A DNA stretch of 64,000 bases from Lactifluus volemus (taxonomy: Eukaryota > Basidiomycota > Agaricomycetes > Russulales > Russulaceae): the NCBI GenBank assembly GCA_022376515.1, contig WTXI01000044.1, positions 1-64,000 of the forward strand, in the 5' to 3' direction. The translations under genes and the position numbers were made by a program. Positions 10,037-50,944 of the stretch are shown here, in pieces. The notes beneath the pieces were generated by a model that worked only from the letters and a program-made list of their open reading frames with translations, had not been told where the DNA came from and ran no database searches. The first letter of the stretch is position 1. Each line of letters begins with the position of its first letter.

Positions 10037-10384
10037 AGCGGTTTCATATTATTCCTTTGGCTGAGATAGCAGTGGCTTCTCGACTAGCAGCAGCCCGACG
10101 TTTTGTTCGGGCTCTGCACGCAGCTTGATGGAGTTTTCCTTTTCTGATGACTGCAACCTTTCGACCGGGGAAAAAAAAACACAATTGTCATTGTATCTGA
10201 ACCACAGCAGAAGGATCAAGTTTGTACTTGGAAAAATCATATGCAATTCATGGATTTGATGGGGCTTTGAACCCTCCGCTCAACATGGTAAATATGACGT
10301 CTATTCTTTTTTTTTGGTTGTACAGTACCGTGACTTTGATATTACTACATTTCAATTGAAACTGCTACTTCCCTCGTACAAAAC

Positions 10385-10535
10385 CCCCAGCCAGCCTGAG
10401 AGATGGCGGTAATTGTTTGCCAGGTAGTTGCACGGCCCTTGTCGGCGATAGCCCCATGAAGGAGGAACAAATTCATTGTATGCGTCGTAAATGCCAAGTG
10501 CTGTGACTAGAGCGAGGTAGTGGATGATGCCGCGT
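10385..10535 (-). pseudogene. GH15 C-terminal fragment
   Basis: Minus-strand reading contains VTALGIYDAYNEFVPPSWG and CNYLANNYRHLSG. It matches VAALGVYDAYNGFIPPSWA in the GH15 pseudogene at 20139-20363. Only this end-of-domain piece is present. The same fragment recurs in block B copy 2 near 52125-52250, so it predates the block duplication. Confidence 0.72.
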
Positions 10536-23363: not shown

Positions 23364-24268
23364 TTACAGGACCGCATTCCCTGTCCCGCGCTCAAAATAT
23401 GTAGCGTGATACTCCCCCAGACGATACTGTAATGCACGGCTGCGTGGTATGACGCGTCGGGGCGGGCCAACGAGCGCTGCCCCTGCGTGCAGTGAGATCT
23501 ACGGAATTGTGCTCGTTTCAGCACGTATAGTATATAACAGTAGAAGGGAGTCGAGGTACCTCGCCGCTGACCGCCCCACTCTTCCCGCTGGAGAGGGGGA
23601 GCACTTCGATGTGGTATCCAGAGAGCTGGAGCAGTATTCTCAAGACATTATCGAGGTCGTCGAGTGTAGCAATGTGGTATCGTACGGCTAGTAAAACGCC
23701 GCTCTGTGTATTGAGGCGAGTTTGGATAAAAGCGATAGGGGATGGAGAGGCGTTCCATAACTCGCCTTTGCACAACATGCCACAAGCGCGCGCACAAAGC
23801 GCGAAACATCTAATGAGGAATGGCCGATCCACTCAAAGCATGCAAGCTCATCGAAAATGAGGAGTGGAGGTGTGGCCCCACGTATTCTTTCAATAGAGTC
23901 TCGTATCATGTCGAGTAGGGGTAAGAGGGTAACCCCCTCGGATGGAGACAGGTCAGGGATTCGAGTTGGGACATCGATGAAGACGATAGAACCCTGCTCT
24001 AATTTTTGTGTCATGTTGAAGCCCTAAGTTTCACAGAAAACTGAGAGGGAGGATGAAAAGTACAGCAAGAACTCACCGAGCGCGATGCAATGGCGTTCCA
24101 CTTTGCGAGATGTTGGGACGTTGAAATGATGATGCACTTTCCATCGGGTGAGCCCTTGATAAACTCTGATAATAATTGGTGCAAAAGAAAATCTCCGGGG
24201 GATGCAAGATGGTCCGTGATAACTATGGGACCAGAGTGAGTTAAAAGTTGGTTGGCAGAAAAAGACAT
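23364..24268 (-). CDS. ELP6: Elongator complex protein 6 (ELP6), copy 2
   Basis: Second complete ELP6: exons 24077-24268, 23766-24023, 23560-23703 and 23364-23498, exactly 20705 bp from copy 1 throughout. The same motifs are present (VITDHLASPGDF, GSIVFIDVPTRIPDL, DELACFEWIG, PLSSGKSGAVSG) and so is the GC-AG intron. No indel occurs in the coding or intron sequence between copies, while COG3 and GH15 beside it are broken. This suggests selection has kept the ELP6 frame, or the duplication is recent relative to decay. It is divergent from COG3 copy 2. Confidence 0.8.
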
Positions 24269-24414
24269 TGCAGATAAGATTAGATTTTTTCTCTGTTGAA
24301 AATCCCGAGTTGATGGCCTCCACGACGCAAATACGCCCAGTCTGAATATTCGCTCTCAACAACTAAAATCTGCTCTCGCTATCGAATAATGAGAAAACAA
24401 AGCACCACTAGGAG

Positions 24415-25430
24415 ATGCTGAGACCAAAAGCGTGGCGGCCCTCAAGGCTGCTGCTGAGCGGAGACTCACACCCTTTCTACCATTATCCACCGTCAGAGTC
24501 AGTCCATATTACCCCTTGGAATCATCTCATCATTACAGCCTTCACAAGAGGACTCTTCCCGACCATCAACTCCCCTACAACGCAAACTTGGTTCAAGTTC
24601 CCGTCTTCCCACGCCGACGGGCTCGCGTCGCCGCACTCAACCGGCCGTTTGCCTGCGCACATGCCCTCCATCCGAAGCAGCCAGGCTCCACAGCAATATT
24701 ACGACTAGTTCGCGCTGATAGACCGCTCAGTGGCGCACAGCGAGGAGGCACACTTTCGACAGCTTCTCTTGCGCGTCTCGGAACATCTCGACAGGCTCGT
24801 CGGCCGCATTGACCAAGCCGATGCAGAGGTTGGGAGTATTTTGGATAAGTGGAAAGGGGTGGAGGAGGGCAGAAAAGATCTGCAGGGCGTGAACCAAAAG
24901 CTGTTCGATATGCGGGTGCGTATCGCCTCTCGCACGCACATTTCTCGGATGCGTGGAAGAGCTTGACATTTGCGTCGTCGTTTTACAGGATCAATTGGTG
25001 GAGTTGCAAGCGGCAATTGGGACGACCTTGGGATACTTTCAGGACATGCGACGCGCCTGCTCAATCGGACATCTGCATCGAATTTCTCGAATCCCACGTA
25101 CGATTTATTTTTCTCTGTTTGGACGTGCTCTTCTTACCTCTCCACCCTCCTCCGGGGACAGTGAAATTAGAAAGAAGCGGAAGTCTATCTCCTACGAGTC
25201 CGGCAAGGTATGACGCGTGCAATGATGCTCATTAAAATGTATTTTGTTGGATCCCTCCGCGCACTCACCCAGGATGTCTCGCGACGGCTGTTCGAACAGG
25301 TACCTTTCTGCGATGCCTCTTCTTTACACGCGTTTCACCACCGTAGCTGGACAGCTTGCACCTGTTCTTGGAGGATTTGTGTGCCGTGCCCACTCACACC
25401 CTGAGGACCTGGGTGCTCTGCTCTCAGAGT
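24415..25430 (+). pseudogene. COG3: COG3 pseudogene, copy 2, 3'-truncated
   Basis: N-terminal part of COG3, stopping after ALLSES at about 25430 where homology with copy 1 ends. It carries the shared TAG (24706-24708) between QQYYD and FALIDRSVAHSEEAHF, where a conserved Trp is expected. It retains GRIDQADAEVGSILDKWKG and MYFVGSLRALTQDVSRR. The empty site of the 693-bp transposon lies at about 25100. The downstream part of the gene is gone; the 23.8-kb transposon complex begins 67 bp later. Confidence 0.82.
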
Positions 25431-25496
25431 CCTGTACCGTGAACTCAAACACGTGATGTAATGTCTTCTCATCCCAACAGCTTGAGCTGCGCATTA

Positions 25497-25692
25497 TTGT
25501 ATTTTGCATATGAGTTGTCACAACGAAAAAAAAAAAAAATTTTAAATAAATAAAAATTGAAATGTGAATATCTCCCTGAATTCTCAACATATAAAGCTCA
25601 GAGGGGCACCAAAGTGATCGGAAGAACCAGCGGTATAGAGCTATCATGGACCGAGGAAGGAAAAGAGAGGATTAAAAAAATTCATTTTCTGA
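25497..25692 (+). repeat. Left terminal inverted repeat of the DDE_3 transposon
   Basis: Pairs with 49061-49256 inverted. Shared strings include TTGCATATGAGTTGTCACAA, GGGGCACCAAAGTGATCGGA and AGCGGTATAGAGCTAT, with scattered mismatches and a variable A/T run. Confidence 0.9.
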
Positions 25693-25762
25693 GCTTGGTG
25701 TAACTGTGTTACCAGATTCGGAGTGATGTGTGCACTTTTTTTTTCACCCTTTTGCCATAACC

Positions 25763-28185
25763 ATGGGGAGAAAACGACCAAAAACTAGTGCTCCAAAGGG
25801 TTCTGTTGGTTCTGTTGGCAAGAAACGAAAGTCAGGTAAGTTTATAATCTGTTCTCATATATGTATCGGGATAGAGCAACCTTTTCCTTAGATCCTTTGG
25901 AGACACCTAAGCCGCCCAAGCGGGGTGCTTGCACACAATGCAAAGGTCGCAAGGTCAAGTGCACATATAAAGAAGCTGCCTCTGCATGCCAGAAATGCAT
26001 CAGTGCTGGACTGGAGCATTCATGTACACAGATCGCTGGTGTCATGGCACCAGATCCATCCATCTCTCGACGGCCATCACGATTCTCTCAATCCTCGCAT
26101 AAATCCACTTCTCCATGTCTTCCTTCTAATGCCCCGGAGTATGCCCACCAGTCTACAACCCTTCGGAGCCATGATAGGATCAGAGAAAGTCTATCTGAGG
26201 GTCAAGGTGCGTCAAGTCATATTGTGATGTTTCCATGCAGATTACTCAAGTTTCTCCTATCTTTAGATCACTACACATTGCCAACAATTGCTGAGGAGCA
26301 GTTGACTGAGGATCCCGATCCAATTATCTCATTCCAAAGCTTTATCGACCTTGAAAGGATGCAACCCCAGGCATCCTCTGATGTATCACACGATGATGAC
26401 TTTGGCTTGACCTCTACTCAATTTGGATCTGACACAGATGACGATGATGTCCTAGGGCCAGCAATACAACCATCCAATAGCCCTCCAATGCGCCCAAAGC
26501 CTGTGAGGTTGGGCACTGAACGCCATGCAGCTGATCATGCCCCAGGCCATCCTGACTCTCAGGCTCCTGCCTCTCCTCAGGATTATGACCATGATCCAAG
26601 CACATGTGGTATGTATTATATTCATTGTCCTTTTTCACATTCCCTAGCATCTAATATTTTTTGAAACAGATTTTGAAATCTCCGCTGTCGTGACAAAGCA
26701 AGACGGCAGTAACTGCCCCTTTACCATCAAGTCTTTCACTTCTTTCAAGCGGTTGAGGGATCTTGTCAGCAAAAAGCTTGGGTGTTATCCTGGGTCCCTG
26801 AAACTCCGTTATCGTCTTGATACTGACAAGCCGAAGACTCCAGCGACATCAATTCACAGCGTGGATGAACTTAAGATTTTCCGAGACCGTATGCGTCTTC
26901 TGATTGTCCCCCAGCGCCTTGCAAGTGGTAAAATATCATCTCGTCACCTCAGACCAGTAACCGTCTGTTTTGAGGATGGTTCTAATACAGATCAGAGCTC
27001 AAGTCAGAGCACTAGCCGTCCTGGTGCCACATCAGTGGACAAGCAGGTATGTAACTCCATCTATGTCTCTTTTTTGAAAGCACTGCTGAAATATAGAAGG
27101 CCTCGCAGTCGTCATCAAAGCCCCAGCCAAGCAGCCTCACTTCGTCCAACCCCTCAACTCATACCCAGATGTCACAGAAGGCAGCAGTTGCGGACCTGCA
27201 GCAGCGCTGGAAGTGTCTTCTCCACTCGAAGACCAAAGAGACTTTTTGCTGGCAGTCGCCACAATCCAATAGCATCTGTTATGAGCTTACCTTTACCCAG
27301 CTTGGGCTCTGGGCAATGGAGATAGTTAGTCGTCCACTGTCTATTCTCAATCAGTTCATACCATGGCTAACTAAATCACAGGTTAGAGGCAATGCAACTA
27401 TTGACGAGAAGCCTGAAAATTTACATCTCAATATTGCTCGGCCACGTGCACGCGCTGCAAGTGTGCCACTACAAACAGCACCCCAAGTATACCCAGAACA
27501 TGGCATAGCTCCAATAACACCCAATGCAGCCGCTACCACCGGCATGCCAGTGGGCTACCCAGCAGTCCCAGCCTACCCTGGGCCTGTGCCCCAGACTTTT
27601 GCCGCCGCCCTTCCTCAAGTTCCTGGGCCATATATGAGCCAAACCATGATGGGCGGCATGGGCCAGTACTTCATGCCATATCCCCAGCCTCCCATCATCC
27701 ATCCTAGCATGCCTTTTTCTCATTCATCGACTCTGAGGGCCGAAAAGAACCCCTCTGACTATCCAGATATTCCCACCTGGTTTCGATACCTTGATGCGCA
27801 TCCAGGATGAAACAGGGGTCGCGTTAAGTTTGAGCCGCTTGCAGCGTCACTTGTGGAAAGGGAATTTGTTTGCATTACCCAGTTGGCAACTGATCTTGTG
27901 ACCTGTAAGGACTTGGAGGAGTGGCTTGGTGTTAAAATTGGGACGGCAGTTTTGATCAAACAGTATGCTCAAGCTGATGTGCAGGCCATAGAAATGGGGA
28001 GGTTGGTTACAGTATTAGCTGATCTCCAAGGCTATCAGACGCTTTTATCAGCAGTACATATTGGCTTCTACCCTACTAACTACATATACCTTTCATTTTG
28101 TGCACCATTGCACCTTGGACACTCATGTCAATTACTTGATCACTACAGATTACTGACACCTGAAATTGATGCCTGTGAAAAATAG
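25763..28185 (+). CDS. Zn2Cys6-type protein carried by the DDE_3 transposon
   Basis: Multi-exon gene starting MGRKRPKTSAPKGSVG, with a basic N-terminus. A Zn2Cys6-like cluster follows, with six Cys spaced as CX2CX6CX8CX2CX8C (CTQCKGRKVKC ... CQKC ... C). A middle region holds acidic and Pro-rich segments and DFEISAVVTKQDGS. Near the C-terminus, FEPLAASLVEREFVCITQL ... CKDLEEWLGVKIGTA looks like a small helical SAM-type domain. Exon 1 ends at 25835 and joins 25892 in frame. No transposase signature is present. It could be a DNA-binding accessory factor of the element or a captured regulator. The 3' exon structure is approximate. Confidence 0.7.
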
Positions 28186-29449: not shown

Positions 29450-30114
29450 CATCAGGAAAACGTCATATTTGCTTATGCTAATTAATGGTGCTTACTTTGC
29501 TTAATGGTCTTAATTACGGTCTTCTGCTTAATAAAAAATTTCTGTTTTTTGGTTTAAGCATGTTAAGCACATTAATCACATTAATCCACACTCAGCACAA
29601 CTAAGCAAATTTTATTATGACCAATAATGAAAATTAAGCAAACTTTAATCACACTAAGTAAACCAGTAGTTTAAGCAAACTAAGAGAATTTTAAGAGGCT
29701 TTTAATCATGCTAAGCAAATTGAAGTATTTTATGTAATTTAATTAAAGTCCGAAAAATATGCAAAGTCATGAAATTTTCACTGAGTCGTTCCCGTGCACC
29801 AACCACGTGCATCTTTGTTTGTTCTTATTTGCACGATGTTGATTTTCGTGCGTTTTCGTGCCAAGTCTTCTGTCCCTCCCTCCCCTCTGTCGTCGTCGCC
29901 CCCGTGTTGAGGACTCCGCTGTTGTCACCACAGCTGGCTCACCGTCTGGCACTGCCACACGTCTTGCCCTCTCTCCTTGCCGTCTCCGTGGTCTCTGTCA
30001 CCACCGCTCGCCGCCTTGCGCTGCCACAAGCCTCAGCGTCCCCGCGTTCTCTTTGCCACCGCATTTCCCACCCCCCCTTTTTTCCCCCCGCGCAAACGCG
30101 TCTCAATGCTGCTT

Positions 30115-30222
30115 CCTCTGCCTCTGCCTCTGCCTCTGCCTCTGCCTCTGCCTCTGCCTCTGCCTCTGCCTCTGCCTCTGCCTCTGCCTCTGCCTCTGCC
30201 TCTGCCTCTGCCTCTGCCTCTG
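30115..30222 (+). repeat. (CCTCTG)18 microsatellite
   Basis: Eighteen perfect CCTCTG units in E1 copy 1. It keeps several reading frames open and produces artefactual Pro-Leu or Glu-Ala repeat ORFs. Confidence 0.98.
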
Positions 30223-31197
30223 CCTCCACCACGTCATCCTCTGCCTCCTGCGCCTGCGCCGTGTCTACGCCCTCGCCTCCGCATCGCTTCCTCCTGGAAC
30301 CACTGGGCTGGGCTGCGAGGGGTCCACGGCGCACGCTGCCTGCGCCGCGCCTTCTGCGCCACCTCTCCGGTATGTTGTACGCTACCTCACCCCAACGCTT
30401 CCTGACCCTTTTTTTTTTGTTCGCCTTCACCTCTGCCTCCGCCTCCTCCTGTGGCGCCGCCTCCCCTGCCTGCACCACCCCTCCTGCGCCTTCTGCGCAC
30501 TTCCGTCCCCTCCGCCGTCCCCGCGCCTCCTCCGCTTCCCGCGCCTCCCCCGCTTCCCGCGCCTCCCACGCCTCCTCCCGCGCCTCCTCTTGCCCCTCCC
30601 GCGGCATTTCCTGGGCTTCCCACGCCCCGTGCCTCCTCCCTTGGCCCTCGCCTCCTCCCGCGCCTCCGCCACCGCCTCCTCGTGGCCCTGCAGTCCCACC
30701 CCCCAGGGCTGTTGCATCAAGGCCTGTAGATTACTAGTCTTAGATATTCATGTTGTAGTTTTACTCCAATATATAATTTTGATGCCTATAAAATTGTGTG
30801 ATTAAAATTTTCAAATGGATTGAAAATTTCAAATTGTGATGAAAATTTCAAATTAGTTAAAAATGTGAAAGATGCTTAATGTTACTTAGACCTTGCTTAA
30901 TTAGCTTAATTAAGCAGAATGTTCTTAATTCAGCAAATGTGCTTAATTCAGCAACGGGGTGCGCTTACTGTGCTTAATCAAGGGTTGCTTAACTTGTGCT
31001 TAGTTCTTCTTAATGCTTGCTTAACCTGCTTAATGACGACTTTAAGCACACTGTTACGGTTATGCGGGCCGCCCGGCCCATTTCTTACTATTTTCCATCT
31101 GATTTTCGACTTGTGTTGTGACCTAGGATCCCTTTCCTTGGCCAGCCCCTTCTGTTCCGCTTCTAGGGGCTGTGCGTCGCCATTTTGGACGTGTATT

Positions 31198-32755: not shown

Positions 32756-33305
32756 GGCAGGCCTAGTGTTGCGGGGCTCGACGAGCCGGAGCTAGCCGAA
32801 GCCGAGCCCCCTTTAGCCATGGCATCGGCTTGCCAAATTTAGCCGAGCCACCTTAGCCGGAACCTTTAGCTAAGGCTAAGCCGCTTAGCCTTAGCTAATG
32901 GTTCCGGCTTACGGAGGGGAGCCCTCGGCTTGGAGCTCATCACACTCATTTCCAAAGTACCCGTGAATCTGTGATACGTGGCATGGCGGTGACGCCACCC
33001 CTTCAATGTCCAACAAACTCTAACCTAAGTGCCACGGGCCCACGGCCCACAGGCTACAAGAACAGTAACAACAAGCCAAACACGTTGCACGTCACATGCA
33101 ACGTGTCTACACAGCGCTACAAGCCTACAGCGAAAGGAACAACTAAAATATCGTGGTACAAGTCACAAACATGCCGATGACGGCCTATCACCCACTCAAC
33201 ATTGAATGATCATCTCGCGGCCCTTTGAACGACGAACGTAAACTGCACATTCTTGTTTGTCAGCCTCGGGGGTCGGGGACTCGGGGTCGGGACAAACAAA
33301 AGTAC

Positions 33306-34341
33306 TTACATTCGGTCGCTGGATGGTGAGGAGGATTTGCCGAATGAAGCAAAATGAACGGAATCAGGAGCTGAGCTGCTCAAGCATTGCGTGAGGAGTG
33401 TGTGGAGGTAGCTGTACTGTGGCTTCTGGTCGAAGTTGAGCGATCGAATGTACTGCGCAAAAGTGTGGAAGGGTGCAGGTAGGCCGAGGCAAAGAGTTTC
33501 GGCCGAGGCAATCTTCTTCTTGAGAACAGCTGCTCCACGTTTCCCAACAGAGTCTCCCACAAGGTCGTCTTGCCAAGGTAAGCGACCACGATATAAATAG
33601 ATAATAGTATACACGAGTGCTTCAAGATCGTCGCGGCGTGATTGCGTCTGTCCTAGATGGCTGCTAATTGATGTAAAGGCGATGGTGCCTACAGTCTTCA
33701 GTCCAGACATCTGCGGAAGGTGCTGACGAGTCAAGGGATTGCGAAAGAGTTGGGCCAAGCCAAAGTCGATTAGAAACACCTGGCTGCCTTTTTCACCCAT
33801 GCCCGTCATGAAGCTCGACGGTTTAACGTCGCGGTGGATGTAACTTTGTTCGTGTAGCGATTCAAGACGTGAAAGCTGTCGAAAGGGATAAGAATTAAAC
33901 ATTTTGAGAAACAGAGAAAATTTACCATTTGATCGGCGAAGGAGAACACCAAGTTGTCGTCGTGGGACTTGCATATTGCCTCTTCCAACGTAAGATCGAG
34001 GCGCTCAAGAACCATCACGTTGTAGGGGACCTCTGTGCCATACCAATGCATGGCAGGGAAGCCGGGCACATTTGAAAGGGCCTTGTAAACAGCATGCTCG
34101 TTACTGAGACGGGAGTTTCGTGCTTTGACAGGCTCAAGCTTTAGTGCAACATCCAGCCTAGTTTTGATGTCCCGTCCTAAGTATACATGTCCTAGAGGAT
34201 TGAGCAAAATCGAAAGGTGAGACGGAAACAGAACAACTTACCATGGGTTCCAGAGCCCAGTAACTTTCCCAGCCTATATCGTCCACGTACGCGAACTACG
34301 CTAGGCTGAAGGACGCTGCTGAGTTTGCTTGAATCTGACAT
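33306..34341 (-). CDS. Casein kinase 1-like protein kinase (hAT1 cargo)
   Basis: Three exons that join in frame. The glycine loop GKLLGSGTHGHVYLG spans intron 1. VALKLEP carries the ATP-anchoring Lys. YIHRDVKPSSFM is the catalytic loop and FLIDFGLAQLF has the DFG metal site. TRRDD-type features of the CK1 fold appear as QSRRDDLEALVYTIIYLYRG. The Asn normally found in HRDxKxxN is Ser here, which could lower activity. Start at 34341 (MSDSSKLSS); 34392 is an alternative. It is the 3'-most gene of three on this strand, about 240 bp downstream of the transposase stop. A cytosolic or nuclear Ser/Thr kinase is expected; its role in the element is unknown. Confidence 0.88.
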
Positions 34342-34579
34342 GGGGTATGGTATTGTATACACGAGTTGTGTTGGGTTGATGTTGACCTTCATGATGAAGT
34401 TAGAACTCCGAGCTCCGACTCTCCGCATGTGATCGCACGTGCCATTTTGCAAATCGAGTGACGGGGGATCAGACAATGTTTCAGGGCGCATGAAGTATGA
34501 AAGTACGAAATCTGGGATGGTATCACGTTAAACTAGCAGTAAAGGTCCTTATCCCTAAGTGTCGTAGACTCAGTCACGG

Positions 34580-37500
34580 TTAGTCTAAATTCATAGCATC
34601 ACCAAGTAGTTCATCCCTCGCGGTTTCGGCGTCCCCGCCCAACAAAGACTCGAGCGTAATCTCTGGTTCTTGCTTGCTCTCTCCCAGCATTTCACTCTCC
34701 TCCGTCTTCCAACCAACCATGAACTCGAGACGCTGCTTCTTTAGCAGGAATTTTAGCATCTGCAACGCCTCCATGAGGGCTGGGGTGATCCGGTTTCGCT
34801 TCTTGGTATCGGTATCCCCAGCTGACGAAAAAACTCGTTCGCTTGGAACAGAAGATGCTTGAATGGGGAGGTAGTCCATGGCTATAGCAAAGAGAGTAGG
34901 GAATTCAGACTTGTGGGCCTTAGCGGTAAGCATGAGTTGTAAATTTGAAAATTAAGCAATAACATTTACGTACCTCCCAGAATGTCAGGATATTGGTGTT
35001 TTCCGTGGTCAAGGGACTCGAAGTGTACTTTGTGAATTCGTCTTCGACGCTCCACGTCGATGCCGGGCCATCAGATCTGGGGTGTATGGGATGATCGTGG
35101 AGTTGGAAGCGTGTCGACGTCATCGCGTACGATGGAAGCTTGGGGGGTTGGGCGGATTCCACAATTGACGGCTTCTTGGCGCGATACTCACGCATCTACG
35201 ATAAATAGTGAATGTCAGAGTGCAGCTAGAGCCTGCAGGTAAATATTACCAGATCGAACATGACTTTTCTAGCCAGATCTATATATTTTTTCTCCCACTC
35301 GCGCTGGATCCACGAGAAGCGTGTGGCAGGATCGAGAACTATGAAGCGATTCAGCAACTGTCCCGACCCCGGTAAATCAGGGAACCTACCCAAGGTGATG
35401 ATGTACGCATGAGTGTCGTCCATCCGCTTGTAATATTTCCGCGCCCAGAACAAACCAATATCTGTCCAGTGCTTTACTTCTGAGTATGTAGCACCGAGTT
35501 TTTCCCACGTAGTCATGAGAAGTTCGAAACTGGCGATGGCACCACACAAGACTGGCGTCGATTCAGACGACATAGTTTGCAAAACTATATGCGCAGCCTG
35601 TAAAGATTGACCAATGATCATCAACGTGACACGAAAAGAGTATTTGGGAACATACCTCTAGAACACATTCTATGTGCTCTAGGTGGTCCCACTCAGTAGC
35701 GCTTAGCTTCATAGATTCGATCGACGGATTATTCGCGAAGTACGTATCTACAGCCTGAATACCTAGGGTCAGTGCCGACAGTTTCGTTCAAAGTTCGAAC
35801 GCGTGTACTCACCTTCCTCAGGAAACGAAAACGCCGGATCATCAGGTAGACAGAATCCCATCGAGTCTTGACATGCAGCTTGAGTTCTAGTGGCCGTCCC
35901 ATCTTTGTCTCGGGAGAATTCAACTCGGGATGATTTTTTTCTAACTCGGGGTTATCGTCGATGCAAAGCTTGACACTACGCGCAAACGATTCCCTTCTGG
36001 AGTACGATGACCGTATGTAGCGGATAAAGTCTGCAACACGTTTGATAGGATCGTCCTGCAGAGGGTCAAACTCATCGTCTTGAGTACTTGCGGCGATGAT
36101 GTGGCCAGTGCAGATGTTAACAATGTGTGGGAAACACATGATGCGATGATTGCGATGATCGAATGCAACGTCACGCTCGACGCGTAATAATTCTTGCAGC
36201 TCTTCCATGGCGGTCCCATTATTTGCGGCGTTGTCAAGAGTGAAATGACCGATCTAGTCATTTAAGTAAAGCTCTCGGTTTAATATACGGTCACATACCT
36301 TGAGCGGGTCAATCTGAGCACGATCGATAAGAGATAGGATGGCATGAGCGATATTTTTACCCGTATGTGCATCAGGAAGGTGGTGAAAGCCGATTAGAGC
36401 AGCTTTCAAAACAAGAATATTGTTCTCCCGAGAAATCCAGTGCGATGTTAGAGCGAGATATGGCGTCAAGTCTGCACTTGACCAGATATCGGCGGTGAAA
36501 CTTATCCGACCGCACGACCTCTATTTGGAGTAATGGGTCAGTGCTCCTGTCATCAAAGGAAATGACTAACAGCGAGTTCATTACGCAAATTCTTGAACGC
36601 ATTTGCCCATTCAATAGTAATTCGTTCGCGCATTTTGTCGCGATGTGGGATGGTGCTAAGTTCAGGTCGCAGAACATAGCAAATATCACGAAATTCGAGG
36701 CAATCGACAACGCGAAATGACTAAGTTTGAGATATAAGCTACTAACGGAAGTGAGACAGGACAACGCTCACCTGGTCATCTGCAACGATCCAGCGAGCAA
36801 GGTATCGGATGAATACGTCCGGAGTATAGGCCGGAAGCTGGCGCCCAGGTGAGTCTTTCTTGACGCCTCCCTTGTCCTGGTGCTCGAGAGACTTGAAGAT
36901 AGGCCATTTGTACTTCTCGCGAGCTTCACAATACATGACGTTATGTTTGTTGTCCAGGTGTCTCCGAAGGTTAGTATTACCCGTGTTCGGGCCATAGGAA
37001 GATGCCTTTTCTTCACTAAGGCCCTCCAGCCTGTTCAAGTTGTTCTGTCAAATCACACCAATGACAAAGGACGCGTTACTTACAAACAAGCATTGCATCG
37101 CCTCATCGTCTCACCTTCATCGTTAACAAATTCAGTGAAAAAGAATGCCATATCCGTATCAGTATTTGGAAGCTCAGAGTTGGTGTCGACGGTATCCGTG
37201 CAAAGTGTGTTAGATTGAGAAAGAAGTCCGTTTGAATGATCAAGTGTTGGTTGAGCTGGGGGACCGTCGGACTCGCTATCGCTATCGTTGTCAGGTAACT
37301 GGATTTCTTCACGATCGTCATCTGCAACAGGCTTAGTACTCACGATTGTCAGAGCTAGAACCCTCAATGTAGGAGCGTAAGAAACTCACCATTACACGAG
37401 GACGCCGGCCCCTGCAAGTAGGCTTGGACGGACGAGTGGCTCGGGGCACAGCAGGCTCATGCTCACGAAAGCCTTCCTGAGGGACATTATCGACAACTTG

Positions 37501-37733
37501 GGTCTTCGTAGTGGTAGACTGGACGACGACGGCGATGATGATGACGACGATGTAGTCAGCGGCTCAGAGCTAGAACCTTCAGTGTATGGATGGTACACAC
37601 GTACACGAGAATAAGCACGCCGAGTTGATGGACGAGAGGGCACTTCAGCTGCAGGAGATGAACCTTCCGGTAGGTCTGAGGGGATATCATTGACGACTTT
37701 GGCCTTCGAGGCCCTGGGGACACGGGGAGGCAT
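34580..37733 (-). CDS. hAT transposase of hAT1
   Basis: Multi-exon gene starting MPPRVPRASKAKVV. A BED-type zinc finger appears as RCNACL ... NLRRHLDNKH. The RNase H-like core follows with HFTLDNAANNGTAMEELQ, CFPHIVNICTGH and LHVKTRWDSVYLMIRRF. The C-terminal hAT dimerisation region is MDYLPIQASSVPSERVFSSAG, split here for length, followed by RNRITPALMEALQMLKFLLK. No internal stop was found in the expected exons, so it may be active. It lies between the two kinase genes. Confidence 0.9.
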
Positions 37734-38037
37734 GAGGTGTCCGAGGTGAGGAAGGGAAGAAATGCAGTCACTATATATCAGTGAGGGGTCACTGAAGGCG
37801 CTGAGGTTGTTGAACGTTGAATGTTGAACGTTGAACGTTGAACCTTCAGGCAGCACGCGGTCGTTTACAAAAGATGGAATTCATGTAAATAGAGTTCAAC
37901 ATTTAGTACGGGTGTAGACGTAAAGCCCGAGCCCGAACTATTCGGACGTTGTACACTACCCTGAAGCGTAAGATAGAAACATGGCATACACCATGGTCCA
38001 AGACATAAGAGTACACATACAAATAATGAAATCCGAG

Positions 38038-40300
38038 TCATATCGATTCAAAAGGACTCGATTTGATGTTGGCTCGCTTCCGCGATGACGCTTCACCTTC
38101 CGGAGCAGCATCCCGACATCTCTTGGAACTCGAAAGTAAATCATACCGCTCTGCTTGCGAGAGGATAACCGCCTGCTTTTCGGCGGAGTCCCCGGGCGGC
38201 CAATCCAGGGCTTCGATGGACCTCTTAAAACAATCGATGATGGCATCGTAGTTCTCGAGGCTTTTCATGCCCGTTTCATGCTCAGTGTGACGTTCGAGAC
38301 GCTTCTTAAACTTCTCGGGATTCTCGTTGTGGCCCATCACGGGCTGGGGCTGTTTGTAATGACGGTGAGAAAGCAAAGACCTCAGCTCGATCAACAGACC
38401 GGTGAGAGGTGGGTTATTGACAAATCTGGGCAAGTCCGAGTCGAAATCACCGCGCATGAAGCGGGACTTGGTGGATCCTCCGGAATCTCCATAAACAGGT
38501 GGATCAAATATAGTGCCAAGCTCGGACGATCGTTTCGTTATGTCCCAGTCGGATTTGACGTAGTTGATAGCCATCCATAGCAGGACGAAGAAAGTGGACT
38601 CGATGTCATGGACAAATGTTTGATGAATTGTGGGGTCCTCGACAATGTCCGCTGCCATAAACCGCCATGTACCCTGCCAACTATCGTCAAGAAACACACA
38701 TTGGGAAATTGTGGTAACGTACTGTACGGGTGAACTGGCGAGCACCTCCAGGTGATGAATCACTCGAATCAACTCTTTTGCAGAGGTCCCAGTCGATGAG
38801 AAGTCCACCTTTGTTCGGAGTCAATAGTATATTATTCGAGCTAATGTCACGATGAAGGATGTAACATCTCTGAAAAGCGGCTTCATGAGCTAGAAAATGG
38901 TCAGTTGGTAGTCATAACAGATAGGGGGGGTCAGATACGCACCTTGCAAAGCTGCAAAAATGCCCTGTACCAGGTCTTTACTGGTTTTGAAGGTTTCCAA
39001 CGATTCACCGATATCATTCAAGATTAATCGATGATGAGTATGACGAGTGAATGCGTTTTCAACTTGAAACTTAGACCGCGGTACCCACTCCGCATTGACA
39101 TATTGGTGGGTGTGCGTGGTATGACCGTTCACGTCACCGAAGGCTGAGCAGTGAGGGATATTGGGTATATTCGCTCGATTCAGTTCCACGTAGATATCAC
39201 CTTCCTTCAGCATTCCCTCGAGGTCGACCCTCCACGAATCCTTGAAGAAGACGATGCGGCCATATTCGATGTCGTAAGCGATTGAGGTGCGGGTCGCACG
39301 ACCAAAAGGCATGTGAGGCCGGGCTACGGGCGGTGTGATAACGTAGTAGCCAAGGCGTGGTGGCACGACTACTCGAGGGACGGCGACGACAAGGAGTTCC
39401 TGATTCTTGAATTTGTCGTCAGCGAGGCAAGCTTTCTCAGTCTCGTCTACTGAGGCTCTGCGAACGGTGTCGTCATGTCCTCGCGTCGCTCTGTCCGCTT
39501 GATCATAATGGGTGAAAAAGTCCAATAGCGCGGAATCTTCTGCATAATAGATTGGCCCGGTGACAATTGCACCACTCCGATCCCATCGTATGAGCCGTGC
39601 ATAAGTCTTCATAATGAGGACACTGAAAACGTGCGTGCGATACTGAGAGTCTAGTTGCAAAGCCGCGTATGTAGCAATCTGACCGGCTGTTTTGAGTCCC
39701 TTTGCATTTTCACGCATGAGCGGATTAGAATGTGATTGAAGCCTTGGATTAGGGAGAAAGGGATCATCCACTTGGTTGTGCTTGAATTCGATAAAGATAT
39801 CGCTGAGGTGAGAATCAACTGTGATGACTTTATGGTGTTCTTTGGCGTAAACAGTGCAGTCGGGTGAGAAGGAAACGTTGTACTTGGTAACGGCTATGTC
39901 ACTTTTGTTTGCTGTATCACGGATCCAGAGCCTTTTGACGTGTTGCTGAACAGCTGCAACCTAATGGTTTCCCTTCAGTGTTCTATACCTAAAGCTCAGA
40001 GAGCACTCGATAACTTACAAATATTGGGTACATCTGAGCCTCATCCGCCGTGTTGCCTAGTTCATCAAATATACCCGATACAGAACTCGAAGGTTCCGAA
40101 CTCGGAAGGAAAGTGGAGAGAAACTCTGTAGGAGGCATGGGACCAAGGAAGAAAGGAGCTATTTCTGCTGATAATGCTTGAAAGATCTTGTCTCGTGTGA
40201 GATGTTCTTTGTTGAGGCATCCAGTAGTCGAACTGCGAGTGTGTATTGGAGTGCCAGGAGCAAGCAGCGAATTGGCTGAGCGAGGAGGTGTGATGCTCAT
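38038..40300 (-). CDS. FunK1-type fungal protein kinase (hAT1 cargo)
   Basis: Four exons that join in frame, start MSITPPRSANSLL at 40300 (an upstream Met at 40408 exists). The N-terminal half is typical of FunK1 (DIFIEFKHNQVDDPF, then LKTAGQIATYAALQ, FSVLIMKTYARLIRWDRSG). The catalytic part has ILHRDISSNNIL and, in place of DFG, LLIDWDLCK, as is usual in this family. RTGTWRFMAADIV follows across the last intron. FunK1 is greatly expanded in mushrooms and its substrates are unknown. It is the 5'-most gene of the hAT1 trio. A host origin and capture by the transposon is inferred. Confidence 0.88.
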
Positions 40301-40525
40301 TGGTGGCTGGTGTCTGGGAGGCGGGTTGGTTGGGCAACGGGGAGGCACGAACCGCCATGGCTTAGCCAATGGCTTCTCACGCCTGTAGCCGTGATTGGAA
40401 GCTCCCACAAGCTAACTAAAATGGGGGCTTGACAGGTGCTCGGCTCCGTACGGCTAAGGATAAGCCGGCTCCGGCTCTCGGCTAAGCTGCCAATAGCCGC
40501 AAGCTGCCGCAACACTAGGCAGGCC

Positions 40526-41632
40526 GCAGGCATGCACAACGTGGTATGGGTGGTGTCAGGAACAGTGGGGGCATCGGAACAGCGCATTGAGGCGGTGGTG
40601 GCGTTGGGACAGTAACCGCTATGTCGGGAACAGCAGCAGGGGTCAGCAACCGCGTGTGGACAGCAACGGCCACGTCGGGAACAGCGGCGGTGGGACGGCA
40701 AATGCTGCGTGGGCAGCAATGACCGCATCGGGAACAGCGGCGGTGGGACGACAAACGCTGCGTGGGCAGCAAAGACCACATCGGGAACGGTGGTGGCGGC
40801 ACAGCAATGGCCGCGTTGGAACGGCGGCGAGGGGGGAGATGGCAGGGGTGGCACAGGAGGGGAACCGTGCACACCATAGCACAAGTCACAGGTGTCAGGC
40901 GCTCGGACGGTCACAACAGCGATGCCCGAGCAACCGTGACGCCAATAGACTGTCTACGGGTGGAACGTCCCTCGAAAGAGATGCAGGAGGGGAATAGGAA
41001 ACAAGAAAGTAAAGAAAGATTAGTTGTGAAAAGTCAAAAAGAAGAATCATGACAAACCAATGGACCAAGGCTAACAGGCCATGGCAGTGGTAGCAGCGAG
41101 GGGGGTGTCGCGATGATGACACCGACCGAGGGCGGGATGACCGTGGCAGAGAGAGCAACACAAAGACCATGAGGACGCGAGACGAAGCGATGACAGAGGG
41201 CTGGCCTCGCGTTGCATGACGTTCCTCTGCCACAGAGGAACGTCATGCAACGCAAGGCCGCAGAGGACGGGGGTATGGCCGAGGCGTAGTCACATTGTGG
41301 CCAAGGGCGATGGTGGCCCAATTCGAGAACAAAATCGTGCAAGAACAAAATCTAAGCAGTCCAGAGAATTTGGCAAGCAACAGCACAGATCGAGACGAGG
41401 AGGAAGTGGAACTTGTGCATACTAAGTTGCACAAAACGAGGTTTTGGGGCCAGCCGCTAAGCTGACCCTACAATGCGTATGTATTGAGGTTTCGAGGTCA
41501 GCCACATGGCTGACGCTGCTGACCTTACAGTGGGAAACATTAGCCTCAGCCACTGCCTCTACACTTTGGTTGACAAATAGCATTTTGGTTCTCATTTGAA
41601 AAAGCAACTTCTATCAGTACATCCACAACCTA
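40526..41632. other. Transposon interior between hAT1 and the DDE_3 gene
   Basis: Positions 40530-40900 are GGAACAG/GGCGG-rich and probably non-coding. Positions 41246-41475 repeat 29155-29390. A long hairpin is at 41209-41253. No gene supported. Confidence 0.55.
41209..41253. repeat. Perfect 21-bp-arm hairpin with 3-nt loop
   Basis: GCGTTGCATGACGTTCCTCT plus G, loop CCA, then the exact inverse. Beyond the arms GGCCT and AGGCC extend the pairing with one mismatch. The related unit at 29155 has no such palindrome, so it arose here, for example by template switching. Confidence 0.9.
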
Positions 41633-42801
41633 CTAGCCATAACCACAATGCCGGTACCAACCATGAATGTCTGGGAGTGTGATAGTGTACAGAGTTCCAA
41701 GAAGACAATAGTATATATCAGCAAATGACATGGTTGTCATTGCAAGGCGAGCATAGTCCCCTTGACGACGAAGTTTATACTTCATGCACGAGAAAGCAAG
41801 CTCGATTGGGTTGTAATCTGGAGAATATGGTGGCAAGAATTCACACCGCATACCGCTGGCTTGGCTGTCAGTATGAATATGAGGCATAGCTATACACGCA
41901 CCGAGCCTGAATGAGTTCTTGAATAAAAGGGGTCTTGTGAATGTGGCAGTTGTCCATGACAATGACCGAGTTTGGTCCAGGGAAGGGTTGCATATGGTCA
42001 AGAAGGTTCTGGATGAATAATGCAAATGTTTCGGAGCGAAAGGATCCTTCTACTATTTCACAGTGTAGGAATCCATCCAGCGAGATGGCTGGGAGTACTG
42101 AAAATCTGAGAAAAGATAAGTAGTAGAGTGCCGTATGTAGTGTGTCACTCACCGCTTTCCACGTACAAAAAAAGCCTTTCGTTGTGCTGGTAACCCCCGA
42201 ATGGCCCATGCATGCCCACGATATGTTGTCCTGCGATCAACTGAGCTTTCATCAACAAAAACCAGCTGGCTGGCATGATATTTGCTTATGCGGGTGACAT
42301 AGTCTAGGCGCTTCTCAGCAGAGCGTTCTGCTGCAATGCGTGTTATCTACAAGGGAAACTAGTCATGTTCCCTTCATCTGACACAAGCTACTATACGCAC
42401 CTTCTTCATTGTAAACCCTCCACGACGGAGCATGCGCCAGATAGTTGATTTTGAAACGTCCTTGCCACATGTAATAGATAGCATCTCCTGAAGTTCATCA
42501 AGGTACATGTCTGGGTTGTTTCGGACAGCACCAAAGAGAAACTAAATAATCATCAGTACCTGATTGTAGTGGAGAAGATGGGATTACTTACCTCCAAGTC
42601 CACATCACGTAGGTGAGTGCCCTTCTTTTGTGGTTCTTTCTCTTCTTCAATAGTGCCATATTGGTTAAAATAGGCAAGTATCCGGCATACAGACCGCTTT
42701 GAAATCCCAGTATAGGTTGCAATGGCATCTGGATTCATGACAAAAGAGAGTCGAATGATAATGTACCGGACATCAGAGGAAATTTTGCTGCCGCGTGTCA
42801 T
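41633..42801 (-). CDS. DDE_3-type (Tc1/mariner-IS630-like) transposase
   Basis: Five exons on the minus strand. The N-terminus is a helix-turn-helix (MNPDAIATYTGISKRSVCRI) and a second winged-helix-like part (DMYLDELQEMLSITCGKDVS). The catalytic domain has all three acidic residues: VFVDESSVDRR, VIVMDNCHIHK and YSPDYNPIELAF. The four short introns have GT-AG borders and no internal stop was seen, so it appears intact. hAT2 is inserted five bases upstream of the start codon and separates the gene from its own TIR-side promoter. Confidence 0.9.
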
Positions 42802-45800
42802 AGGAGTGAAGAATAGGGAAGGACACCGGGTAAGATAAACCCGCTGGGTCTGCGGGTAAGGGTCTCGTGGGTAGGGGTCAGGGTACAGTTACCTCTACCC
42901 TGGCCAGACCCTTACCCGCAGACTGCGTTTCACCCACCCGTGCCTGCGGGTATACCAACTACTATCATACTACTTTCGAGTTTCGACATTGTACTGTTTT
43001 CATGAAAACTATTAATAAACTATGATAATCGTGCTGATGGTTGTGGCCCATGGGTGATCACCCCCAAAGGGGAGCATCTGTTATGCGCACCGGGTCACCC
43101 TCGGGGTGCCTGTGATGCCGACTGTCCCGTCTTTGGGCTCCTGCTCCCTCTGCTCCCATCGTGTCCATTCCGAGCCAGAGGAGATGGCTGCTTCGGCAAT
43201 AGGTGCAATGTACTGTCCAGATATGTGCTTGATGCTTCCCCTCGACAGCGGCACAGTGCCAGTCGTTGGCCACACCAGGACGGCCCTCACCACAGAAGGG
43301 GAAAGCCGAGGCACGACCCTGAAGCTCAAAATGATCCCCGTGCAAAGGCATACCAAAAAGGAAAGGAGGGATTCCAATCTAGTTCTGGTAAACACGTTTA
43401 GCGTCGAAAAAAAAAAATTAGAAAGAAGCGCACTAAAAAAACCCCCCCCCCCGCCCCCCCTCTTTACCTGACCAACTCGTAAACCCACCATGCCACGTGA
43501 CGAAGTAGACACGTCTCTGATAACCACCAAGCGCCAGAAACGAAAGCTAGCAGCATACACAACCAACGAAGACAATATATCTGCTGATAAAGAGGAAACT
43601 GTCAAAAGGTTGAAGGAGACTGTCAGGCCAATAGTCTCCGAGTCGTCCTCATCCAGTCAGGGTTTCATGATTGGTGATTTACCATTGACTCACCATTTGA
43701 TCAATAGGACTCGGACTCGAAGCACCCCTCACAGCTAGAAGGGAGACCCAGTCTCACAGGGCGTCTCCGGAAGGTCAAGGCATCGATAATGATCCGGAGG
43801 ACACTTGCCTGCATCCCAAAAATGCGCGTCGTGTGCGGGATCGATCTGATGACTTGGGCGATGACTCGGATGACCGTCCTCAGCCCCGAAGGAGTCAGCT
43901 GTCTAAACCTGCACAGAAAAAGCCAAAAAAAAGGCATACCTCTTTTAACAATGTCGAAGACTCGGATACGGATGGGCCTCTTGGGGATCTTCTTGAGTCC
44001 TCCGAGGGAGACACCGAGAACGCGGCCGAAATCCCGAAATCGACGCAGCATCAGAAGCAGTTGGTAATAAAGAGAGCGCGGGTTGTCAGGGATGAATCAG
44101 TTGATTCCGACATTGAGATCCTTGAAAACCCTGAAGAGGATGCCGAAGCAGAACTCGGTCAGTCACCAGATGGATTAAGCGGCTGGGACTTACTGCATCT
44201 TCCACAGAACGATTGGCCAAAGAGTGGACTGCACCAATCTACGGCTTCTTCGAGCCACGCCCGTCAGTAGAGATTGTGAAGGGCCGGCGTTGTCACGAGT
44301 TCAAATGCAGAGCTCCCCATTGCAAAGGCAAGGGGTCCAAGGCTCGCATCGTTCAACGGTTCCTCGATACGGGCGACGCGAAGTCGACTAGCAACCTTCG
44401 CAAGCACGCGAAAGTTTGCTGGGGCGTGGACCTTGTCACACAGGCCGATGAAACAAGAGATCTTGCTAGTATTCGAAAGGGTCTTGCTGCAGCTAGAAAG
44501 CTTAATAACGGGACCATTACTGCATGTTTTGAGCAGCAAGGTAAAGGAAAGGTGGTGTACTTGACACGCCAGCAAACCTACAAGGAAACACGGTGAGTTG
44601 ACCGTCGTGTCACGATGCGGAAGACTTACGAATGCCCGACAGGGTTGATTGCGTCCGATGGATCGTGGAGAGCGTGCGGTCCATGTCCACTGTTGACGAT
44701 GCCGGGTTTCATCGCCTAATGAAGACCGGGCACCCGCATTTGCGTATTCCATCGTCGCGGACAGTTGCGCGTGATGTTCACGCCGTCTTCTGAAGTGCCA
44801 AAAAGAATATAATAAAGATGTTGCGAGTCAGTTCCCATCCTTGGTCCTGAATAATGTAAATCAGACTTACCTGGCTGGTAGGAATATGATGGCCGTTTGA
44901 ACTTCGCAACGGACGCTTGGACGTCCCCCAATCACAAACCTTTCATCGCCGTGACCGTCCACTTCGAAAAAAACGGCCGGCTGATATGTATCCTCTTGGA
45001 TATAGTTGAATTGGCCGTGTCACACTCGGGTACCAATCTCGCCATCGCATTCACAAAAGTTCTCAAGAAATTCAAAGTGTCAGACAAGGTATGATTACCC
45101 CTCTTCAAAAGAAAAACAGGAAGACTTACCAAATCATTCTAGGTCCTCGGCATCACCTGCGACAATGCGTCAGCGAACGACAAGATGACCAGGAAGCTTG
45201 CGCGCGTTCTCGATCACTTTCCTGGCCCAGCCAACCGTGTTCGATGTTTTGCACATATTGTGAACCTGGTAGCCAAGATCGTCTTGCGTCAGTTCAATTT
45301 ATCGAAAGCCCATGCCAAACAAACAGAAGACGACCTTGATGAGAGCGACTTAGAGCTCTCAGAGCTCTTGGATGACACAGATGACGAGGTTGATGAGGGA
45401 GATAACGAGATTGATGAGGAAGATATCGACGACGATGCAGATATGGAGTTGGAATTGGCTGAGGTTGAGAAGGAGATGAGGGAGGACTCGGAGGAGATAG
45501 ACGACGTTGCCAACTCAACTGTGCAATTTGGCAGTGTTTTGCAGAAGGTTAGCGCCATCGAATTTCACGCGCTCATGCCGCTAATCACGCTTTGGCTGCC
45601 ACAGCTTCGAAAGTTTGCCTTTGCCATTACGAAGTCGCCCACCAAACTTATGCCGGAATGGAACAAGGCCGTCAAGCGACTTCCTGTAAGTGTTGATGAC
45701 TCGAAGAAGCCTCCCTCCCGCCGCTACATCATGCTGCGTGATGTTCCGACCCGCTGGAATTCAACTTATGAAATGCTCAAATTTGCATATACCTTTCAAG

Positions 45801-46481
45801 ATCCGATTAACCAACTTACAGACAATTGATCCATGAAGCTTGGGCACTGTGTGATTACACAGTCAGAGTGGGTACTTATTAAACAGCTGCGAGATGCACT
45901 TAAGGTGAGTATTGGCATCTTGATCATTCACTTTCACTAACTGCTATGTTGCAGATCTTCAAAACAGTCACGTTGCAGTTTTCAAGTGATACTCCATGTC
46001 TTGCAGCTGTCATCCCGGCCATGGATAGGATGCATGACAACCTCACAGCAGCATGCGAAAAGGAAGAGTACTCTCCAGCACTTCGAGCCGCACTGAAGAT
46101 GGGCAAGGGTTTATTGGATAAATATTACTCACTGACTGACACCTCAGAAGTGTATCGCATCGCAATGGGTATGTTATGACTTATTCAACCCGCTCAATTC
46201 TGAATGCTTGTATTTAGTTCTCCATCCCAAGTACAAGCTCAAGTACTTCAAGAAACAGGGATGGAAACGGGAATGGATTGAGACAGCAAAGATCATTGTC
46301 AAAACTGAGTATAGATCTTTATATGCCAGCTATGTCACTCAGAAGGCTGGGCATCCTGCATGCACAAAGGCACTGGTAGGTTTTCTATTGTATGTTTACT
46401 TGCTTGTGCTTACTCTGAGTCACTAGGGATCAAACTCATCTGATGATGGTGACTTCTCTGCAACTGAGTCATCTGACTCAG

Positions 46482-48158
46482 CATCAGGAAAACGTCATAT
46501 TTGCTTACGCTAATTAATGGTGCTTACTTTGCTTAATGGTCTTAATTACTGTCTTCTGCTTAATAAAAGATTTCTGTTTTTTGGCTTAAGCATGTTAAGC
46601 ACATTAATCACATTAATCCACACTCAGCACAACTAAGCAAATTTTATTATCACCAATAGTGAAAATTAAGCAAACTTTAATCACACTAAGTAAACCAGTA
46701 GTTTAAGCAAACTAAGAGAATTTTAAGAGGCTTTTAATCATGCTAAGCAAATTGAAGTATTTTATGTAATTTAATTAAAGTCCGAAAAATATGCAAAGTC
46801 ATAAAATTTTCACTAAGTCGTTCCCGTGCACCAACCACGTGCATCTTTGTTTGTTCTTATTTGCACGATGTTGATTTTCGTGCGTTTTCGTGCCAAGTCT
46901 TCTGTCCCTCCCTCCCCTCTGTCGTCGTCGCCCCCATGTTGAGGACTCCGCTGTTGTCACCACGGCTGGCTCACCGTCTGGCACTGCCACACGTCTTGCC
47001 CTCTCTCCTTGCCGTCTCCATGGCCTCTGTCGCCACCGCTCGTCGCCTTGCGCTGCCACAAGCCTCAGCGTCCCCGCGTTCTCCTTGCCACCACATTTCC
47101 CCCCCCCTTTTTTTCCCCCACGCAAATGCATCTCAATGCTGCTTCCTCTGCCTCTGCCTCTGCCTCTGCCTCTGCCTCTGCCTCTGCCTCTGCCTCTGCC
47201 TCTGCCTCTGCCTCTGCCTCTGCCTCTGCCTCTGCCTCTGCCTCTGCCTCCACCGCGTCATCCTCTGCCTCCTGCGTCTGCGCCGCGTCCACGCCCTCGC
47301 CTCCGCATTGCTTCCTCCTGGGCTGCGAGGGGTCCACGGCGCACGCTGCCTGCGCCGCGCCTTCTGCGCGACCTCCGGTATGTTGTACGCTACCTCGCCC
47401 CAACGCTTCCTGACCATTTTTTTTGGTTCGCCTCCACCTCTGCCTCCGCCTCCTCCTGTGCCGCCTCCTCCCCTGCCTGCACCACCCCTCCTGCACCTTC
47501 TGCGCACTTCCGTTTCCTCCGCCGTCCCTGCATGCACTTCCGTCCCCTCTGCCGTCCCCGCACGTCCTCCGCTTCCCGCGCCTCCCGTGCCTTCTCCCGC
47601 GCCTCCTGCGCCTTCTCTTGCCCCTCCCGCGGCATTTCCTGGGCTTCCCGCGCCCCGTGCCTCCTCCCTTGGCCCTCGCCTCCTGCCGCGCCTCCCGCAC
47701 CTCCGCCTGTGCCTCCCGCGCCTCCGCCTCCGCCTCCTCATGGCCCTGCAGTCCCACCCCCCAGGGCTGTTGCACCCAGGCCTGTAGATTACCCTTAGTC
47801 CTATATATTCATGTTGTAGTTAAATCTCTAATATATAATTTTGATTCCTATATTTTGTGCCTGAAAATTTCAAATTGTGATTGAAAATTTCAAATTGTGA
47901 TTAAAATTTCAAATTAGTTAAAAATGTGAAAGATGCTTAATGTTACTTAGATCTTGCTTAATTAGCTTAATTAAGCAGAATGCGCTTAATTCAGCAGATG
48001 TGCTTAATTCAGCAAAGGGGTGCGCTTACTGTGCTTAATCAAGGGTTGCTTAACTTGTGCTTAATTCTTCTTAATGCTTGCTTAACCTGCTTAATGACGA
48101 CTTTAAGCACACTAATCACACTTTAAGCACATTAAGCAAATTTGACGTTTTCCTGATG
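46482..48158. mobile_element. E1 copy 2: 1677-bp TIR element inside the hAT2 transposase
   Basis: Ends CATCAGGAAAACGTCA and TGACGTTTTCCTGATG, a 16-bp perfect inverted repeat. The interior closely matches E1 copy 1 without the LTR. Host codons run TCA-G before and CA-AGC after with no target duplication, and the host frame is kept when the element is removed. Confidence 0.93.
47145..47246 (+). repeat. (CCTCTG)17 microsatellite
   Basis: Seventeen perfect units in E1 copy 2, one fewer than in copy 1. Confidence 0.98.
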
Positions 48159-48656
48159 CAAGCTTGGATGATGAAGAGCTCATGGATGAGTTTGATTGCT
48201 ACCTCTCAACTGCACGAGTGAAGACTGTGACAGACCCTCTGCAATGGTGGGTTGATAATCAAGCTACTTATCCTCGTCTATGGCGCATGGCAAGGGATTA
48301 CTTGACAATTCCAGGTGTGTACCATCTATTACAGTATCACTTAATCTTTGGGCTAACAAAGTGCTATAGCATCATCAGTTGCAGTGGAGCGTGTGTTCAG
48401 TCGAGGCCGCCTTTTAAGCTCTCATGTCTGCAATCGCCTTTCAGCCAAGACATTGAGAGCCCTCCTTTGCATTGGTACATGGAGTGAAGTGGGGTGTATA
48501 AATGCTAAGGACTTTTCAGCAGCAGCTTCTTTGCCAGATGACAAGATGTAGTTACAACTTACAGCCTGAGACTCATATCATGGGTACACAATGTCTAATA
48601 AATCTTTTGAATGTTTTTTATCATCTTGAAACTGTGAAATAATCTTAAGTACAATA

Positions 48657-50855: not shown

Positions 50856-50944
50856 AGTCGTGAGAGGTGTTGGTCGTAGTGTCGTCGAAAGGGGCTTGGG
50901 CAATTTCATAAGGACCCAACAAACATCAACAAACATCATTGCCC

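Follow-up and report, generated by a model that had tools for sequence, protein, structure and literature searches.

Introduction

Fungal DNA transposons with TET/JBP genes, among them hAT7, encode an accessory enzyme alongside the transposase, and the TET-positive IS3EU families also carry an alpha-kinase gene; the order of these accessory genes is described as conserved in some families and the genes are proposed to serve the element (Kojima 2025, PMC12730594). The FunK1 kinases, which are expanded in several fungi, have been called little understood, and their expansions are attributed in two reports to lineage-specific duplication or lineage-specific chromosomes (PMC3203195, PMC6001611). 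Here we analyse a hAT element located in a 64,000-nucleotide stretch of Lactifluus volemus DNA (contig WTXI01000044.1; hereafter, the window), which encodes a FunK1 kinase and a casein kinase 1 (CK1)-like kinase in addition to its transposase. We propose, with a probability of roughly 0.72, that this is a recently active, multi-gene and apparently autonomous hAT element on whose behalf the CK1 and FunK1 proteins act.

A three-gene hAT element recurs across the genome

The element shows the hallmarks of the hAT superfamily, namely short terminal inverted repeats (TIRs) and an 8-bp target site duplication (TSD), identical at 8/8 positions in the window and perfect in six of the eight full-length copies described below. 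The original prediction had held that 11-bp ends and a perfect 8-bp duplication enclose FunK1, hAT transposase and CK1 genes lying on one strand, with splice junctions that keep the frame. The enclosure was confirmed, and a splice search across frame-preserving GT-AG introns yielded predicted models with three intact frames (Table 1). A pair of 11-mers in 64 kb is weak evidence when taken alone, since 22 of 100 shuffled sequences gave at least two matches at no more than one mismatch. The evidence becomes strong across the searched genome (62.4 Mb, 628 contigs), where the 11-bp end pattern matched 125 times, as against 28 for the reversed control pattern, and where full-length copies bear duplications of their own.

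Table 1. Coordinates of the hAT element and its features within the window
Feature	Position	Strand	Support
hAT element, family A, 7754 bp	32764..40517		matched ends, TSD, copies elsewhere
TSD GGCAGGCC, 8 bp, left copy	32756..32763		8/8 identity
TIR TAGTGTTGCGG, CK1 side	32764..32774	+	exact match
Subterminal inverted repeat, 27-nt arms (96%), 1-nt spacer	32855..32909		
CK1-like kinase gene, 3 exons, 361 aa	34491-33306	-	splice model; PF00069, E 2.2e-15
hAT transposase gene, 10 exons, 875 aa	37733-34580	-	splice model; PF05699, E 1.6e-15, C-terminal dimerisation domain
FunK1 gene, 4 exons, 700 aa	40300-38038	-	splice model; PF17667, E 1.5e-40
Most of the predicted N-terminal restriction-endonuclease-like (PD-(D/E)XK) domain, FunK1 residues 95-255	39478..39960	-	model pLDDT 91.7, PDB comparison
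TIR TAGTGTTGCGG, FunK1 side	40507..40517	-	exact match
TSD GGCAGGCC, 8 bp, right copy	40518..40525		8/8 identity

A search of the element against its own genome gave eight full-length family A copies of 7753-9202 bp (the window, C145, C457, C71, C399, C202, C120 and C344), together with partial copies (C334 and C216 at contig ends, C181 and C410) and smaller pieces, and the genome search also matched the subterminal inverted repeat stretch in other family A copies. Perfect and mutually different TSDs flank six of the eight (GGCAGGCC, TGCTTCCC, GCCCCACG, GTATGGGC, GCCGTACC and ATTAGTAC). Flank comparison ruled out C120, C344 and C334 as separate insertions, and they were counted once: they represent one locus by a shared flank (99% over ~1.5 kb, on one side), C120 and C344 differing on the other flank. 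The flanks of the remaining six full-length copies do not match among themselves. The full-length element is therefore present at seven unrelated sites, and the trio thus recurs with different 8-bp duplications at unrelated positions, a recurrence that the original prediction had suggested looking for. As a separate observation, C344, C120 and C334 contain ~1.4 kb of extra DNA near element position 455, within one family A insertion; this extra DNA is flanked by a short direct repeat and shows no obvious inverted ends.

All three reading frames are intact in four of the eight copies (window, C145, C457 and C71); taken singly, FunK1 is intact in seven, CK1 in six and the transposase in five, and some of the frame breaks are 1-base deletions that are possibly assembly errors. 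When eight copies (five full length and three partial) were compared with the window, C-to-T or G-to-A changes accounted for 172 of 223 substitutions, 153 of the 172 lying at CpG, a pattern that would be expected of a methylated element. Of 18 distinct short elements retrieved with the same ends, nested internal pairs being omitted, 15 carry an 8/8 TSD, one a 7/8 TSD and two none, which indicates that the system also mobilises non-autonomous copies.

The transposase and a predicted nuclease-kinase

The C-terminal hAT dimerisation domain of the transposase scored 57.1 bits against PF05699 (cut-off 21.4), and the protein aligned to Hermes with an E-value of 1.4e-9. This alignment placed D400 and E790 in hAT-like contexts, as candidates for two of the three members of the catalytic D-D-E triad. 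Confidence in the transposase model is lowest in its 5' part, where two versions of the start and first intron scored close to each other. No TET/JBP gene was found in the element, the Pfam matches of the three proteins at E 0.001 being restricted to kinase-type and hAT domains.

FunK1 belongs to the PF17667 family, with a score of 139.6 bits against a curated cut-off of 24.1. In an alignment of 48 homologues, taken from the 120 FunK1 matches listed, the residues presumed to be the kinase catalytic set (K334, E347, D448, N453 and D466, all present in the window protein) are strongly conserved, with K and E in 48/48, D and N in 47/48, and the second D in 46/48 of the aligned proteins. Upstream of the kinase, the modelled N-terminal core adopts a restriction-endonuclease-like fold by comparison with the PDB. 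It contains D128, E152, K154 and Q188, and its D...ExK motif is conserved in the same alignment (D in 38/39, E in 42/42 and K in 41/41 ungapped rows). This assignment is based on a VIA-align 2 PDB comparison, the motif and the topology, and not on Foldseek; fold searches with whole FunK1 were dominated by the kinase domain, the named matches among the 50 listed (viral library) being kinases. FunK1 is thus a predicted nuclease-kinase, in which a restriction-endonuclease-like fold would be joined to a kinase. Fusions of restriction endonucleases and kinases have reportedly been linked to Crinkler-type effectors by Zhang et al. in 2016, who are said to have proposed a transposon link.

A CK1-like kinase with a departing catalytic loop

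The best solved-structure match of the third protein is CK1 delta (E 4e-71), and it carries the SRRDD motif together with HRD and DFG, matching CK1 above other kinases. Its key residues are K101, D188 and D209, with Ser193 at the position usually occupied by Asn in HRDxKPxN. The complete HRDxKPxN loop is absent from the CK1 proteins of family A and of three further families introduced below, the sequences being HRDVKPSS in A, HRDVKPSS with DFS in B, HHDIKPGN in C and HRHLKPSH in E. In the phylogenetic tree, the CK1 proteins of A, B and C and 21 relatives (the named ones from Lactarius or Russula) form a group with 100/99 support apart from canonical CK1. Judging from its sequence, the element protein is CK1-like by descent, with a catalytic loop departing from the norm, and the family E protein resembles a pseudokinase.

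The hAT-CK1 pairing extends beyond family A

To place the CK1 genes relative to hAT genes, 99 CK1 matches were grouped by hand into 52 CK1-like loci, and 99 of 103 hAT matches were used, the four omitted being second pieces of the same loci; the CK1, hAT and FunK1 lists comprise the best candidates only. Half of the CK1-like loci (26/52) have a hAT dimerisation domain upstream of them on their own strand and within 2.5 kb, the distances being 259-1821 bp, whereas no other order or orientation occurs at this range for any of the 52. The chance of such a placement is 0.002 per locus, although the loci are related and are not independent events. Conversely, no CK1 match occupies the downstream same-strand position at 73 of the 99 hAT loci. 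Four further hAT relatives, L057 (C614:93000-99000), L058 (C168:241800-247800), L022 and L023, with 30-92% identity by segment, show no CK1 match within the stretch examined. The original prediction spoke of the kinases as cargo, which is probably the wrong word, since CK1 recurs as the second gene in this hAT lineage.

The 26 paired loci span at least five sequence families, plus one further locus (C86). Besides family A, they comprise B (C125), C (C1, C89, C20, C494 and C244), D (C312, C596, C620 and C80) and E (C140, C493, C596 twice, and C68). Family B shares 77% identical DNA over 5 kb with family A and is flanked by a 7-bp matching duplication, GCTTCCC. Family C shows matched ends and perfect duplications at C1 and C89 (GTTACGAC and AGCGGCAC). 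The highly diverged family E contains a FunK1-hAT-CK1 trio in the same order and strand as A, with FunK1 43% and CK1 39% identical to those of the window, at C140 and in two copies at C596; its ends start with TAGTGTTGCC, and at C140 the element is flanked by a perfect duplication, GCTGAGAG. The two C596 copies (1551-10490 and 18704-27645) are in opposite orientation and their duplications are swapped, copy 1 being flanked by GTAACGGT and AGTATGGG and copy 2 by their reverse complements, the arrangement expected after an inversion between the two oppositely oriented copies.

FunK1 and CK1 genes in this genome and in other Russulaceae

With the window FunK1 as query, 31 FunK1 loci were listed in the genome, and 13 of them lie, by manual count, inside such elements, ten of A type and three of E type; among the ten, C120 and C344 represent a single site, and two copies, C216 and C410, are truncated. 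The suggestion in the original prediction that transposons are a vehicle of FunK1 expansion is thus supported for this genome only.

The closest named relatives of both kinases, among the matches listed, come from Lactarius and then Russula. Five FunK1/CK1 pairs on the same contig were detected in Lactarius (L. indigo, two in L. sanguifluus, L. hengduanensis and L. psammicola), compared with 0.21 expected when every contig used is counted and 0.07 when only those below 300 kb are, the class to which all five belong. This count draws on 20 CK1 and 24 FunK1 named Russulaceae matches among the 120 listed for each, infers a shared contig from the same species and contigs of identical length, and assumes a 60-Mb genome. 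Moreover, three FunK1 gene models, P0127 and P0132 (L. psammicola) and P0144 (Russula emetica), continue at their C-terminus into sequence resembling the transposase N-terminus, with E-values of 0.009 for P0127 (3e-7 when compared alone), 2.5e-6 for P0132 and 2.3e-5 for P0144, all scored with composition correction and the low-complexity filter off. The P0144 join is the firmest, its transposase end being most like family C and matching family C DNA at E 2.9e-25. These joined models look like annotation read-through between neighbouring same-strand genes. The search for transposase homologues, in which the 7988 candidates sharing most words were scored, yielded five proteins, with Lactarius and Russula unrepresented among them. 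A FunK1/CK1 co-phylogeny test on six pairs of partly incomplete models gave a Mantel r of 0.65 (9/720 permutations), lending weak support. Separately, P0017, P0025 and P0139 belong to 90%-identity clusters in Russula with 152, 80 and 213 members, possibly drawn from several assemblies, as expected of multi-copy mobile genes.

Surroundings of the element in the window

Directly beyond the right end of the element lies a 53-bp tandem repeat (3.2 copies, 40624-40788), followed by a DDE_3 transposase fragment (41633-42049, minus strand; PF13358, E 2.4e-8). A second hAT-like region (44135-48313, plus strand) contains PF05699 at 48191-48313 and, by eye, transposase-like frames upstream, of which frame 45143-45829 has no Pfam match; none of the 52 CK1-like loci adjoins this region. 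A Crinkler-type gene (49572-51032, minus strand) carries the PF20147 N-terminal domain at 50304-51032 (E 3.9e-16), and the adjoining frame 49572-50303 has no Pfam match. Two stretches resembling each other, at 29724-30805 and 46756-47798 (plus strand), contain long low-complexity open frames and are, by eye, a two-copy repeat.

Discussion

The recurrence of comparable, identically ordered gene sets in elements that are only distantly related suggests that the kinases are long-kept working parts of the element and not accidental passengers. In the proposed mechanism, the transposase would cut and paste the element in the usual hAT manner, and CK1 and the nuclease-kinase FunK1 would act on the element's behalf. 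They would likely be directed at the transposase itself, at the repair of the donor break, whose ends are hairpins, or at factors with which the host silences the element. Hrr25, a CK1 of yeast, first came to light in DNA-break repair, and for this reason donor-site repair, or its timing, would be the favoured target of CK1.

Selection is compatible with this proposal. Between families A and B, dN/dS was 0.45 for CK1 (core 0.37) and 0.47 for the transposase, so that CK1 seems to be under selection similar to that on the transposase, which, together with the long retention, fits kinases that serve the element; these values come from one family pair, with a family B model containing one inferred intron cut, and the codons used were those in stretches of at least 40% identity, a restriction that lowers dN. 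Several further points weigh against the proposal. Matching duplications are lacking at C145 and C120. The CK1 proteins of A and B are without the usual Asn, that of B has DFS in place of DFG, that of C has HHD for HRD, and the single family E CK1 that was read lacks the catalytic Asp, which is not what a strict need for kinase activity would predict. In the CK1 tree, the branch separating canonical CK1 has support of 90/94, and family E, known from searches, its ends and one CK1 sequence, forms a long branch of unsure placement. As for FunK1, family B retains only a short C-terminal remnant, none was found in family C (C89), and none was found near the D and C86 loci among the best FunK1 candidates listed, so FunK1 is not needed in every family. 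With FunK1 missing in B and CK1 dead-looking in E, neither of the two activities would seem to be a strict requirement across all families. The family E protein speaks against phosphorylation of the transposase, an example given in the original prediction, as a simple reading for all families; since that protein is pseudokinase-like, binding or scaffolding may be a shared core function of CK1.

An unlikely alternative is that the kinases benefit the host, as a mobile host gene set or effector-like cargo kept by host selection. The predicted nuclease-kinase nature of FunK1 and the expansion of its family in several multicellular fungi (PMC3203195, PMC6001611) agree with this view, but each element family retains its own linked copy, and broken copies, as well as copies with many C-to-T changes, also occur. 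It is quite improbable that FunK1 and CK1 work as a selfish pair, in which CK1 would restrain a harmful nuclease-kinase and loss of the element would be punished. The conserved active-site residues of the restriction-endonuclease-like domain and the shared contigs in other Lactarius would suit such a pair; however, families B and C keep CK1 without an intact FunK1, which argues that CK1 is not retained only as a partner of FunK1. DNA transposons are well known to capture host genes, and the lack of an intact FunK1 in families B and C could point to Pack-type uptake of two host kinase genes by chance, carried unused. We regard this as very unlikely and, as the principal explanation, largely refuted by the hAT-CK1 recurrence: order and strand are the same in at least five families, the trio occurs in two families whose FunK1 proteins are 43% identical, the element-type CK1 proteins group apart from canonical CK1, and frames are preserved with dN/dS near 0.45. 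Chance enclosure of unrelated genes between two hAT-like ends, or an assembly artefact, has a negligible probability, for although 11-bp ends are not rare in 64 kb at one mismatch and C120, C344 and C334 are a single locus seen three times, full-length copies at seven unrelated sites, with six perfect duplications, already refute it.

If the kinases do serve the element, protein kinases and a predicted nuclease-kinase join the accessory enzymes retained by cut-and-paste transposons, and the near-identical copies with intact frames make assays with and without the kinases possible. The 13 of 31 listed FunK1 loci inside recent transposons provide a testable source for part of the FunK1 expansion. 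More tentatively, a whole hAT lineage in Russulaceae, and perhaps more widely in mushrooms, might be a three-enzyme machine, with excision, donor-break repair or silencing under the joint control of the FunK1 nuclease-kinase, the transposase and a CK1 (pseudo)kinase; were this true, a good part of the mushroom FunK1 family would be encoded by transposons or derived from them, and would not consist of ordinary signalling kinases.

Accessory genes, an alpha-kinase included, are already known from fungal transposons (PMC12730594); among the papers listed in searches of the open-licence literature, no hAT element with CK1 and FunK1 was found, and none placed FunK1 or CK1 inside a hAT element. Like the TET/JBP transposons, the window element is a fungal cut-and-paste element with an accessory enzyme beside the transposase. 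It differs from hAT7 in its accessory genes (CK1 and FunK1), in its TSD (8 bp versus 7 bp) and in its host, which is Russulaceae-like, whereas hAT7 is described in rusts; the term FunK1 is absent from the main text of that paper (PMC12730594). MarorhAT-10 of Marasmius oreades is likewise an active mushroom hAT with related non-autonomous elements, but it is given as 3,396 bp with a hAT transposase domain, and the word kinase is absent from the main text (PMC9674265). The window FunK1 belongs to the same PF17667 family as the published fungal kinases, above the curated cut-off, and differs from the published expansions in that its gene lies inside a transposon (PMC3203195, PMC6001611). Finally, the window CK1 shares the SRRDD motif, HRD and DFG with casein kinase 1 (CK1 delta, Hrr25), but is transposon-encoded, falls in a separate tree group and carries Ser for Asn in its catalytic loop.

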